Shown in pieces: positions 22,195-39,897 of a stretch of 64,000 bases of DNA. The notes below the pieces were generated by a model that saw nothing but the letters and a program-made list of their open reading frames with translations, searched no databases and had not been told where the DNA came from. The translations under genes and the position numbers were made by a program. Source of the stretch: Lachnospiraceae bacterium (GTDB lineage: Bacteria > Bacillota > Clostridia > Lachnospirales > Lachnospiraceae); the NCBI GenBank assembly GCA_014239155.1, contig JAAZZQ010000089.1:1-64000 (forward strand), given 5' to 3'. The stretch's first letter is position 1. The number at the start of each line of letters is the position of its first letter.

Positions 22195-22227
22195 TTGTAT
22201 ATGGACACAACAAGTAGGGAAAAAATT

Positions 22228-22346
22228 TGTTGCTGTTCATTCTGTTCTAGTAACAAGTAAAAATCCGTGTAAAATTTACAGTACAAACAAATTTGTTGCA
22301 CAAATGGATTTTTGTTGTAACAGGGCAGTTTATCTGAACTGTTACC
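22228..22346. repeat. Palindromic intergenic element, copy A
   Basis: A ~119-bp unit with outer inverted ends (TGTTGCTGTTCA / TGAACTGTTACC, 8 of 12 paired) and inner arms AGTAACAAGTAAAAATCC (22249-22266) and ATGGATTTTTGTTGTAACA (22304-22322). The inner arms recur at 36225-36243 and 36279-36297. It lies in the leader of the GH8 gene. Confidence 0.65.
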
Positions 22347-26439: not shown

Positions 26440-26652
26440 ATTATGAGGAGAAGGCTAACCACAGGCAGGCAGATCCATAGATTCCGACCGAAACGAAGTG
26501 CAAAATAAGCACTCGAAGTAGTTAGGAAAGCATGTAACAACAAAAGGTATAGGGCTATAGAAAGAAGAATGTCGGAAAGCCGTGTGAAGAACTTCATGCA
26601 TGGTTTGATAAGGGGGGAAAGAGGGCGAAAACCCTCTAACCTATTCTATCAG
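26440..26652 (+). mobile_element. Group II intron 3'-end relic (domains V-VI), no maturase
   Basis: 26576-26606 folds like domain V: AGCCGTG / CATGGTT stem with the AGC catalytic triad, a two-base bulge and a TGAA-GAAC-TTCA cap. It is followed at 26620-26640 by a domain VI-like hairpin GAGGG/CCCTC and an end CTAACCTATTCTAT. The upstream part (26440-26575) is G/A-rich with intron-like motifs, but a complete domain I and the reverse-transcriptase gene are absent. It lies directly behind the Cys-rich pseudogene. The assignment rests on hand-folding. Confidence 0.55.
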
Positions 26653-34543: not shown

Positions 34544-35218
34544 ATGCAAGAAACATTAAAGACAAAAAATGGGTATCATGAGCAGGTGATTGAAAACAAT
34601 CAGGTAACAGTCATGGGGGAGATAGTAAGTGAGTTCTCATTCAGCCACGAAATATTTGGTGAGGGCTTTTATATGGTTGATATTCAGGTGGCAAGATTGT
34701 CTGAATCTATGGATATTATCCCAGTGATGATTTCGGAGAGACTGCTCGATGTAAGTGGAGACTATAGAGGGATGATGGTGGTTGTGAATGGTCAGTTTCG
34801 TTCATACAACAGGCATGAGGAGCACAAAAATAAACTGGTTCTGTCTGTATTTGCAAGGGAAATTGAATTTGTAGAAGAAATCAGTGAGAATATCAAAACG
34901 AATCAGATTTTTCTTGATGGTTATGTGTGCAAGGAACCTGTATATAGAAAGACTCCTCTAGGACGCGAGATTGCAGATTTGCTGTTGGCAGTTAACCGTC
35001 CATATGGCAAGTCAGATTATATCCCTTGTATCTGCTGGGGAAGAAATGCTCGTTATGCCTCAAATTTTGGGGTGGGAGAGCGTTGCTTGGTATGGGGACG
35101 CATTCAGTCGAGAGAGTATATGAAAAAAATTTCAGAGGAAGAACTAGAGAAACGGATTGCTTACGAGGTTTCTGTCAGCAAGTTGGAACTTCCAGAGGAA
35201 GGCACAGAGGAATTGTAA
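34544..35218 (+). CDS. Tandem OB-fold (single-strand binding-like) protein
   Basis: 224 residues, ATG after AAGGGAGAATGAAAAA. Two repeats resembling SSB/PriB OB folds: the first covers about 18-110 (VTVMGEIVSEFSFSHEIFGE, VVVNGQFRSYN), the second 118-215 (IFLDGYVCKEPVYRKTPLGR, DYIPCICWGRNARYASNFGV, GRIQSREY). The acidic SSB tail ending in DxPF is absent. It is not the main SSB; it may bind DNA in recombination or be a domesticated phage protein. Confidence 0.8.
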   Translation: MQETLKTKNGYHEQVIENNQVTVMGEIVSEFSFSHEIFGEGFYMVDIQVARLSESMDIIPVMISERLLDVSGDYRGMMVVVNGQFRSYNRHEEHKNKLVLSVFAREIEFVEEISENIKTNQIFLDGYVCKEPVYRKTPLGREIADLLLAVNRPYGKSDYIPCICWGRNARYASNFGVGERCLVWGRIQSREYMKKISEEELEKRIAYEVSVSKLELPEEGTEEL

Positions 35219-35345
35219 CAGTTCAGACTTATGCTATTCTGCGAATAAAATCGTATTGCTGTGTGTTGCGAAGGCGTCAAAATGTGGCTTTGGAGCATTT
35301 TGTGTGCATTGGACGTGACAGTGAAACCGAAGGCGAAACTGTTAC
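35215..35345. repeat. Palindromic intergenic element, copy D
   Basis: GTAACAGTTCA at 35215-35225 is the reverse complement of the right end of copy A, and AACTGTTAC at 35337-35345 closes it (9 bp perfect). The stop codon of the OB protein lies inside the left end. Confidence 0.5.
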
Positions 35346-35473
35346 TTGTAATTAACGAAATGTAAAATTCAAAGTTGCAAAATTCTGTACGTTATGCTAT
35401 TATTTTCGGGTGATAAATGTTTATATCTGCACAAATGATGCAGTTGCGAGGAAAGGGCATAAGAGATAGATTT

Positions 35474-36036: not shown

Positions 36037-36065
36037 TTGACAGTCCAGATAATAGGATATATAAT
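36037..36065 (+). promoter_or_regulatory. SigA promoter of the dapA leader
   Basis: TTGACA (36037-36042), 17-base spacer, TATAAT (36060-36065): perfect consensus. Transcription would begin near 36072, about ten bases before the riboswitch. Confidence 0.9.
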
Positions 36066-36080
36066 GAAATAATATAAAAA

Positions 36081-36454
36081 GATAGAGGTTGCGTTTTTTA
36101 TCAGTACTTTTAATTCATTTGAAGAGCGATAACAATACAATGTAAGTTTTTCATAATGTAAAGTTTCTGTTACTGTTCACATAGGACTTAACATTTATTG
36201 CTAAGCCTGTATGAAAACGTACATGTAGCAAGTAAAAATCCATTTGCGCAGCGAATTCGATCGTTTTGCAAATTTTGCATGGATTTTTATCTGTTACTGG
36301 AATGAAATGAACAGTAACAAGTTCCTGAGGTGACAGGCATCGTTTGAGGGAGAAGGAAAGGGAAAAACGCCGAAAGCAGAAGGTTCCTGAGTGCTTTCTG
36401 CTTGGGCATGTGGTTAAGAGCTATATGACTGTCATCAACAGATGGAGCGCTATC
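36081..36454 (+). ncRNA. Lysine riboswitch, split by a 152-bp element in its P2 arm
   Basis: 5' part: GATAGAGGTTGCG (36081-36093) and ATCAGTAC, matching the start of lysine riboswitches. 3' part: GAAGGAAAGGG, GCCGAAAGC, a hairpin CAGAAG...CTTTCTGCTTGGGC, ACTGTCATC/GATGGAGCGCTATC (36427-36454). P1 closes as GATAG/CTATC. Between the halves lies the element of 36168-36319 in the distal P2 region, making the aptamer about 374 nt instead of the usual ~180. With the terminator downstream and dapA 117 bases further on, it should cut dapA transcription when lysine is high, if the long arm is tolerated. Confidence 0.85.
36168..36319. repeat. Palindromic intergenic element, copy B, inside the riboswitch
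   Basis: Perfect 12-bp outer inverted ends TGTTACTGTTCA (36168-36179) / TGAACAGTAACA (36308-36319). Inner arms GTAGCAAGTAAAAATCCAT (36225-36243) and ATGGATTTTTATCTGTTAC (36279-36297) match copy A at 22.2 kb. Flanks AGTTTC and AGTTCC may be a target duplication. Confidence 0.75.
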
Positions 36455-36498
36455 ATTTTCAGCTAGAGCTAGTATATGGCATTGTGTGAGGATAGAGT

Positions 36499-36537
36499 AC
36501 CGGCCGTCTATTGATTAGATGATCGGTTTTTTCTTTG
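36499..36537 (+). terminator. Riboswitch expression platform: intrinsic terminator before dapA
   Basis: ACCGGCCGTCTA / TAGATGATCGGT with a short loop and TTTTTTCTTT, 45 bases after the aptamer and 34 before the dapA start. Confidence 0.88.
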
Positions 36538-36570: not shown

Positions 36571-37455
36571 ATGTCTATATTTAAAGGAGCAGGTGTTGCG
36601 ATTGTCACACCGATGAAACCAGATGGAGAAGTAAATTACGAGGCTTTTGCAAAGCTAATTGAGTTCCAAATTGCGAACAAGACAGACGCAATTATTGTAT
36701 GTGGGACGACTGGAGAGGCATCAACACTTACACACGAGGAGCATTTGGACTGTATTCGTTTTTGTGTGGAAAAGGTTGGCAAGAGAATACCAGTAATTGC
36801 AGGAACGGGTTCAAACTGTACAAAGACAGCAATCTATCTTTCTCGGGAAGCTGAGAAAGCTGGGGCAGATGGATTGCTTCTGGTAACACCTTACTACAAC
36901 AAGGCAACACAGAATGGTTTGTATGAGCACTTTAAAATGATTGCAGGATCTGTAAAGATACCCGTGATTCTATATAATGTACCGGGAAGAACAGGCTGTA
37001 ATATTGCGCCGGCTACAATTGTGCGCCTTTGCAGAGATGTTGAAAATATTGTTGGTGTAAAGGAAGCGAGCGGAGATATCTCGCAGGTAGCGAAGTTGAT
37101 GGCAATGGCTGATGGTTGTGTAGATTTGTACTCAGGAAATGACAATCAGATTGTACCACTTCTTTCTCTTGGTGGAAAAGGGGTTATTTCTGTGCTTTCT
37201 AATGTTGCACCAGAACAGACACACAATATCTGTCAGCTTTACTTTGATGGAAAGACAGAGGAGAGCTGTAAGGAGCAATTAAGGGCGATTGAGCTTGTTG
37301 ACGCACTGTTTTGCGAGGTGAATCCAATACCAGTAAAGAAGGCAGTAAATCTGATTGGTATGGAGGGCGGTGTGCTCAGAAGACCTTTGACAGAGATGGA
37401 GCCTGCAAATGTTGAGCGGCTTGAGAAAGCGATGAAAAATTATGGGATTTTATAA
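36571..37455 (+). CDS. dapA: 4-hydroxy-tetrahydrodipicolinate synthase
   Basis: 294 residues from the second of two close ATGs (36571), eight bases behind AAGGAGG; the first at 36565 is too near. TIM barrel with GVAIVTPM, CGTTGEASTLTHEEHL, the Tyr of YNVPGRTGCNI and the Schiff-base Lys in IVGVKEASGD. It condenses pyruvate with aspartate semialdehyde, the first committed step of diaminopimelate and lysine synthesis (EC 4.3.3.7). Controlled by the lysine riboswitch upstream and followed by dapB. Confidence 0.97.
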   Translation: MSIFKGAGVAIVTPMKPDGEVNYEAFAKLIEFQIANKTDAIIVCGTTGEASTLTHEEHLDCIRFCVEKVGKRIPVIAGTGSNCTKTAIYLSREAEKAGADGLLLVTPYYNKATQNGLYEHFKMIAGSVKIPVILYNVPGRTGCNIAPATIVRLCRDVENIVGVKEASGDISQVAKLMAMADGCVDLYSGNDNQIVPLLSLGGKGVISVLSNVAPEQTHNICQLYFDGKTEESCKEQLRAIELVDALFCEVNPIPVKKAVNLIGMEGGVLRRPLTEMEPANVERLEKAMKNYGIL

Positions 37456-39294: not shown

Positions 39295-39897
39295 GACAGA
39301 TGCCTGCTACTAAAAAACATACACAAAAGTGTATGTGTTAGATGATTTGCTACAATCTCACGATTTGTAGTTACTGCTTCAACGTGTATGTGTTGGCAAC
39401 TACATGTAATGCACTGCTCATATGTTTGTATACACTCCACAGTCGTAAATTCCCGATGAGATATCGGTACATACTTACAACTTGCTTGACTATGCAATTA
39501 TGTAAGTTTTCATCTAATTAGCTTTTCCTTTCCTAAATTTTTTGCATTTTTTGTCCTTGCTTTTTGAGCTTGACAATTGAAAAACACAAGTTCCAAGTGA
39601 CATGCACTGCAACAGTAATAGAATATCATAGTGTATTCTAAAAGTAAAGATATTCTGTTTTTGTTGGATTAATAAAAATCAAATAAGACTACTGTTCATC
39701 CCTGTTAGTTATTAATAGAATTTTAAGCATTGTTGGCGTAAATAGCAATATTTTTGCACATGTTGGAACTTTCATAACAGTTTAGAAAAGTGGACCTGTT
39801 ATGAATTTTTTAAAAATTTGGAGAAAGTTTGCAAAAGGGTGTTTATTTTTAGTATTCTATGATAAAATAATTCAAGTTACATTTTGGTAGACTTTGT
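39295..39897. promoter_or_regulatory. Cold-shock gene leader and divergent promoter region
   Basis: 600 bp without a likely gene. Next to the start of the cold-shock gene is a perfect 8-bp hairpin (39317-39336, arms ACATACAC/GTGTATGT), and further inverted segments with GTATG/CATAC follow, as expected for a structured cold-responsive leader. The right half is A/T-rich with an inverted repeat AGAATATC (39619-39626) / GATATTCT (39649-39656); it should hold the promoter for the gene at 39898. Confidence 0.45.

Follow-up and report, generated by a model that had tools for sequence, protein, structure and literature searches.

In the prevailing view, structured RNAs expand through helices inserted at permissive sites, a process best known in ribosomal RNA. 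The nearest structural analogue of the case presented here is provided by the expansion segments of prokaryotic 5S rRNAs (PMC7812874, cited in part), where a large insert also stands in the conserved core of a structured RNA; however, 5S rRNA is ribosomal and not a ligand sensor, and the cited part of that source does not trace the segments to MITEs. The nearest precedent comes from the trp operon of pneumococcus, in whose leader two T boxes are separated by a BOX element; the authors, in the part of the work cited (PMC3049150), judge regulation still possible with it. As in the locus described below, a dispersed repeat is cotranscribed in the leader of a riboregulator, but, in the same part of that source, the BOX repeat lies between two regulators, whereas the MITE studied here is embedded in a helix of a single aptamer. 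Prokaryotic MITEs, as outlined in part of a review (PMC10969869), resemble this element in being short and AT-rich, with terminal inverted repeats, direct repeats, and stable stem-loop transcripts; that part of the review calls the formation of riboswitches or terminators by MITEs merely conceivable and does not name the present family. A literature search of titles and abstract openings, with subscription journals mostly outside it, brought up no report of a transposable element placed inside a helix of an aptamer. Regarding the host RNA, the lysine riboswitch of B. subtilis contains a K-turn and a loop–loop contact, and that of T. maritima has a substitute kink (both from the cited part of PMC4316175).

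The locus analyzed here is a lysine riboswitch carrying a MITE. The window, that is, the whole stretch of 64,000 nucleotides analyzed, comes from a Lachnospiraceae draft genome of 89 contigs (G000; contig C79 bears the riboswitch). The leader is like other RF00168 dapA leaders of the Lachnospiraceae in its promoter, P1–P5 core, L2–L3 complementarity, terminator, and downstream dapA, and differs from them by 212 nt inserted into helix P2b on its 5' strand. A btuR/cobO-type gene lies upstream of the leader and its promoter, and the features that follow are, from 5' to 3':

36037–36065 (+): sigma-70 type promoter of the dapA leader, TTGACA-17-TATAAT, matching the consensus at 12/12 positions
36081–36111 (+): 5' portion of the aptamer, comprising the 5' strands of P1, P2a (36091–36098), and lower P2b (36107–36111) and the motif ATCAGTAC, assigned by its own profile match, alignment with 42 aptamers, and the fold of the joined leader
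36112–36160 (+): insert in P2b outside the MITE, a hairpin of 49 nt, or 54 nt with AAGTT at 36319–36323
36161–36168 (+): left target-site duplicate, AAGTTTCT, one mismatch from the right copy
36169–36318 (+): MITE of 150 bp with 11-bp terminal inverted repeats GTTACTGTTCA / TGAACAGTAAC
36319–36326 (+): right target-site duplicate, AAGTTCCT, whose CCU (36324–36326) is the 5' strand of upper P2b and whose UU may, by reading, replace 36110–36111
36324–36454 (+): 3' part of the aptamer, with upper P2b, the GAGG...UUGA turn, L2 CAGG, the 3' strands of P2, P3, P4, P5, and the 3' strand of P1, assigned by profile match, the helices by the fold of the joined leader
36334–36337 (+): L2 CAGG, by reading
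36386–36389 (+): L3 CCUG, in P3, by reading
36499–36532 (+): intrinsic terminator, a hairpin ACCGGCCGUCUA...UAGAUGAUCGGU with a T run behind it, −12.3 kcal/mol
36571–37455 (+): dapA, dihydrodipicolinate synthase, Pfam PF00701, 306.5 bits
37502–38254 (+): dapB, dihydrodipicolinate reductase, Pfam PF01113 and PF05173

The aptamer (RF00168, 36081–36454) thus stands upstream of lysine-pathway genes, dapA and dapB, as is expected of its family, and is split in the 5' strand of P2b. A first-pass annotation of the same letters had recognized both halves of the aptamer, the terminator, and dapA, to which dapB is now added, and had rightly paired P1 as GATAG (36081–36085) with CTATC (36450–36454); its consensus promoter is also there, at a spacing of 15 nt from the end of the −10 box to 36081 rather than the ten bases given. 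The riboswitch is probably terminator-controlled, and a hairpin with a T run resembling the dapA terminator can be read in the nine relatives listed, although a pattern scan for terminators did not call the one at 36499–36532. The same locus is found in a second assembled genome (G016) with 99.96% identity over 2301 nt, and these two genomes hold the single known allele of the split aptamer. Elsewhere in the window, another dispersed repeat is located at 35215–35346, between ssb-like and cobO-type genes, with more matches in G006 and G010; Rfam matches were also obtained to RAGATH-18 at 39371–39443 on the reverse strand (48.6 bits, cut-off 44.9) and to a group II intron at 26575–26649 on the forward strand (43.1 bits, cut-off 40).

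The extent of the insert emerges from profile and covariance searches. A profile HMM was built from 42 unsplit aptamers, 31 of the genus and 11 from outside, without loci L072–L078 and the named loci L113–L192. The 31 congeners derive from 38 genomes of the genus after the omission of the two with the studied allele, three without a dapA match (G004, G006, and G007), one in which dapA was found and the aptamer was not located by motif (G009), and one in which the leader was not assembled (G022). This profile matches the leader as found in two pieces, of 24.9 and 108.9 bits. When the MITE and one target copy (158 nt) are deleted, the larger piece rises to 112.1 bits and the smaller is unchanged, and when all 212 nt (36112–36323) are deleted, a single full-length match of 149.3 bits over model positions 3–172 is obtained. 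The insert is thus made of the MITE with one target copy plus the 54 nt, and its junction is ambiguous by two bases, since the UU at 36110–36111 and that at 36322–36323 are, by reading, equally usable. The distance between GATAGAGG and ACTGTCA is 347 nt in the allele of both genomes vs. 131–139 nt in the other loci listed, which therefore also gives an insert of about 212 nt; three congeners have about 24 nt more than other loci between these motifs. This count takes the motif pair framing the aptamer and leaves aside chance pairs in the same loci; L109–L192 were read by motif only, and loci without the motifs contribute nothing to it.

The covariance model of Rfam RF00168 gives one contiguous match, at 36287–36460 (53.2 bits, cut-off 30), in which the final 32 MITE bases are made to stand in for P1 and for P2 on its 5' side, with many non-standard pairs, and which does not cover the true 5' half, so that no contiguous match spans the two real halves. 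Among 295 sampled genomes of the order, 185 have an RF00168 match, and the best match of the studied genome is, by E-value, the weakest of the 185, as is expected of a split aptamer. The first-pass annotation, which took a 152-bp element at 36168–36319 for the whole insert, had held that a contiguous hit leaving 36081–36165 unused, or no gain in score on removal of the element, would refute its reading. Both outcomes nearly occurred as worded, with the match just described and a gain of about 3 bits in the profile search when the element and one target copy were removed, because the true insert is larger; without the 212 nt, the full-length match and a canonical fold return. A mobile element is indeed present within P2, accompanied by 54 nt and a second target copy. 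The perfect 12-bp inverted ends at 36168–36179 and 36308–36319 are real too, but the MITE itself spans 36169–36318, and the earlier limits overshoot by one base at either end, since the outermost T and A, which belong to the target duplication, happen to be complementary.

The element belongs to a dispersed family with at least 31 matches in the studied genome (40 of 68 candidates scored) and with matches in 29 of the 38 genomes of the genus. At 150 bp including its terminal inverted repeats, it is too short to encode a transposase, and it folds at −49.7 kcal/mol, more stably than every shuffled version (z = −6.4; 0/200). In the studied genome, 100 sites lie within one mismatch of the 12-bp MITE end, vs. 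43 for the reversed control pattern, and 22 pairs of facing ends are no more than 400 bp apart. An autonomous partner was sought there in facing ends 401–5000 bp apart, and the two such pairs turned out to be paired short elements around host genes, with no transposase; the genes in between encode an EPSP_synthase family protein, BrxA and BrxB, and one 96-aa ORF without a family. At one of these sites (L228, G000:C41:182600-185400), two MITE copies about 2.2 kb apart enclose genes of the BrxA and BrxB families that belong to a BREX defence locus. A partial second copy is located in the window at 22227–22313 on the reverse strand. Another copy (L069, in G005) lies about 100 nt upstream of an unsplit lysine aptamer, just upstream of its promoter; together with the copy in the split aptamer, it indicates two or more landings of the family in this leader region within the genus.

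Compared with the consensus of 12 related copies, among which L002 and L225 represent one site in two genomes, the copy in the window differs at 17 of 150 positions, eight of them private to it, and two of the 12 diverge more (18 and 21 differences). Paired positions of the MITE are kept at chance level (53/58; 1217 of 2000 random placements are as good), and when the 17 substitutions are placed at random, only 5 of 200 versions reach the stability of the window copy, whose energy is better than that of 195/200. Selection on the MITE fold is not claimed from this mixed result. An Rfam scan of 40 MITE loci, run without L017, L022, L024–L030, L096, and L102–L108, found no structured RNA overlapping a MITE copy; it did place a T box in L014, at a distance of about 90 nt from the MITE, and tRNAs in the loci L018 and L101.

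Most of the copies checked in this family carry target-site duplications. Duplications of 8 bp with two mismatches at most were found in 15 of 19 element pairings in the studied genome and in 17/23 in other genomes, vs. 21 of 1722 crossed pairings (loci L001–L030 and L081–L107, a few pairings being alternative ends of one element). In L016/L017 (G000:C8:177406-177678), two adjoining copies are separated by the 8-bp target CATAATAA, which looks like the insertion of one MITE at a duplicate of the other. In the leader, the left duplicate has a T where the right one has the C that takes part in pairing; a T in the unused copy would fit a release from constraint, a single base being no proof.

The remaining 54 nt of the insert are of another kind. 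The hairpin at 36112–36160 is more stable than most of its shuffled versions (z = −2.3; 5/200 as good), and a search of 38 genomes of the genus gave no convincing match to the 54 nt outside the two with this allele, the next being in G001 with E = 0.007. Twenty-eight of the 31 congeners have no insert at this position, and the other three (L062, L063, and L064 in G003, G015, and G018) carry a different insert of 24 columns, a hairpin of about 24 nt located in P2 at nearly the same place; because of these three, the P2b arm seems permissive. The stem in L063 differs from that in L062 by a change from G-C to A-U, and TGAACAGT in L062 is shared with the MITE end. A MITE remnant was considered as the source of these three hairpins and remains a lead; no target duplication was seen for them. 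The 54 nt were probably in place before the MITE, given that the target duplication straddles the boundary between them and the P2b strand; known alleles never have the 54 nt or the MITE alone, and it is from this boundary that the order is deduced. The sister genome G022 (IMSAGC_011, DapA 93%) is uninformative as an empty site, its contigs ending on either side of the leader. At the end of one of them (L193, G022:C76), just upstream of the missing leader, there is a palindrome-like stretch, similar by reading to another next to L016.

The sequences that by reading correspond to the K-turn and the loop–loop contact, GAGG...UUGA and CAGG/CCUG, lie 3' of the insert. The complementarity of L2 with L3 is retained, as it is in L035, L037, and L040, which carry TAGG with CCTA. 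Moreover, all 51 columns conserved at 95% or more in the 42 unsplit aptamers are retained in the window, as they are by 30 of these 42 aptamers; against the 31 congeners, 75/76 conserved columns are kept, and the sole change is at the insert junction. The supposition that the core was left intact therefore holds as regards its sequence. The earlier idea that a self-paired element simply lengthens P2 has to be abandoned, since the MITE, placed in the 5' strand of P2b, has to form a hairpin of its own that leaves the helix next to the 54-nt branch.

In secondary-structure models, the insert is compatible with the aptamer. With the 212 nt removed, the joined leader takes the textbook fold, with a P2b of 8 bp in which CUUUU (36107–36111) and CCU (36324–36326) pair with the partner strand GGGAGAAG (36348–36355); pairing probabilities are 0.92–1.0 for P1, P2a, lower P2b, and P3 and 0.81–0.89 for upper P2b, P2b overall ranging over 0.81–0.96. 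The insert folds by itself into two hairpins, and CCU pairs with 36348–36350 in both the joined and the constrained folds. In the unconstrained leader with the insert, the probabilities are 0.02 for upper P2b, 0.14–0.28 for lower P2b, and 0.51–0.55 for P2a, the last of which ranges over 0.03–0.98 in the 31 congeners by the same method. Imposing the fold of the aptamer takes 6.1 kcal/mol when the real insert is present vs. 2.4 kcal/mol in the joined leader. Shuffling the MITE raises the mean cost to 9.98 kcal/mol (sd 2.52), with 1 of 100 versions as low as the real one, and shuffling the whole insert gives a mean of 9.81 kcal/mol, with 6/150 as low. For the leader with the 54 nt and no MITE, the cost is 8.5 kcal/mol and the P2a probability 0.01; the model thus rates the supposed ancestor with the 54 nt only as worse than the MITE-bearing leader, which is odd for a working switch. 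As these models are blind to tertiary contacts and lysine, and P2a probability spans so wide a range among congeners, they cannot decide function.

The explanation that we favor, with some reserve, is that this is the lysine riboswitch of the dapA-dapB operon, that its P2b arm has served as a landing site, and that the core and lysine sensing were kept around two inserts. The 54-nt segment would have entered the 5' strand of P2b, and the 150-bp MITE would then have transposed beside it, duplicating the 8-bp AAGTTCCT. The insertion need not break P2b, because the duplication left the entire upper P2b strand on the aptamer side. Each inserted piece of RNA would fold on itself, so that CUUUU and CCU could still pair side by side with GGGAGAAG; a self-paired element would bring its own ends together, and the helix could close around the MITE. 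P2b would become a multi-way junction with two side hairpins, and the turn, the L2–L3 contact, and the five-helix core would be unchanged. On this view, lysine binding and control of the terminator would persist, and the lysine switch probably still works. An antiterminator formed by CUAUC and GAUAG is not claimed, since in the model it coexists with the terminator instead of excluding it; the switching step therefore rests on the RF00168 family, the intact P1, and the terminator.

It is also conceivable, if distinctly less probable, that the insert broke the riboswitch, with P2b forming too slowly during transcription, lysine unsensed, dapA expressed constitutively or fixed at a low level, and the core being a recent inheritance. 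The low probability of P2b in the full leader (0.02–0.28), the higher folding penalty (6.1 vs. 2.4 kcal/mol), and the single known allele would all agree with such a loss. The core is complete at 51/51 conserved positions, though, while the MITE differs from its consensus at 17/150, a contrast that reaches significance (Fisher p = 0.008); however, the differences of the MITE may predate its insertion, and when the core is set against the eight private differences, its retention is not significant (p = 0.21). In addition, the promoter (12/12) and the terminator hairpin are present, and the real insert disturbs the fold less than 99 of 100 shuffled MITEs, all of which argues against a broken switch.

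A gain of function, whereby the MITE would tune dapA output, e.g., as a hairpin for stalling or partial termination or as a landing site for a factor, appears improbable. The very stable hairpin of the MITE (−49.7 kcal/mol), its stability relative to randomly placed substitutions (5/200), and the transposon-derived mobile attenuators described in the cited part of PMC2965389 would lend it some plausibility, but base pairs within the MITE are conserved no more than by chance, none of the 31 compared congeners has a MITE in its aptamer, and no terminator-like site was called inside it by the pattern scan that also missed the dapA terminator. Finally, since the element is a multicopy repeat and the genome a draft of 89 contigs, it could have been wrongly joined into the leader during assembly. 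Such an artefact is very unlikely, because the second assembly has the same locus and the identical 53.2-bit RF00168 match, with identical junctions inside an 81-kb contig, and because the near-perfect 8-bp duplication is what transposition leaves and would not be expected of a chimera.

For annotation, the split aptamer exposes a blind spot, since a covariance scan returns it as a weak contiguous match with wrong 5' boundaries. With regard to riboswitches as a class, it can tentatively be proposed that MITEs provide them with expansion segments, where a duplicated helix strand and a self-paired element would let the aptamer rebuild its helix and keep sensing lysine, and that P2b may be a permissive site reused within the genus, by the 54 nt and the MITE here and by the hairpin of about 24 nt in G003, G015, and G018. 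If the sensor is intact, this leader would represent a traceable expansion, in which the transposon and its target duplication can both be recognized, in a small RNA open to a simple ligand assay.
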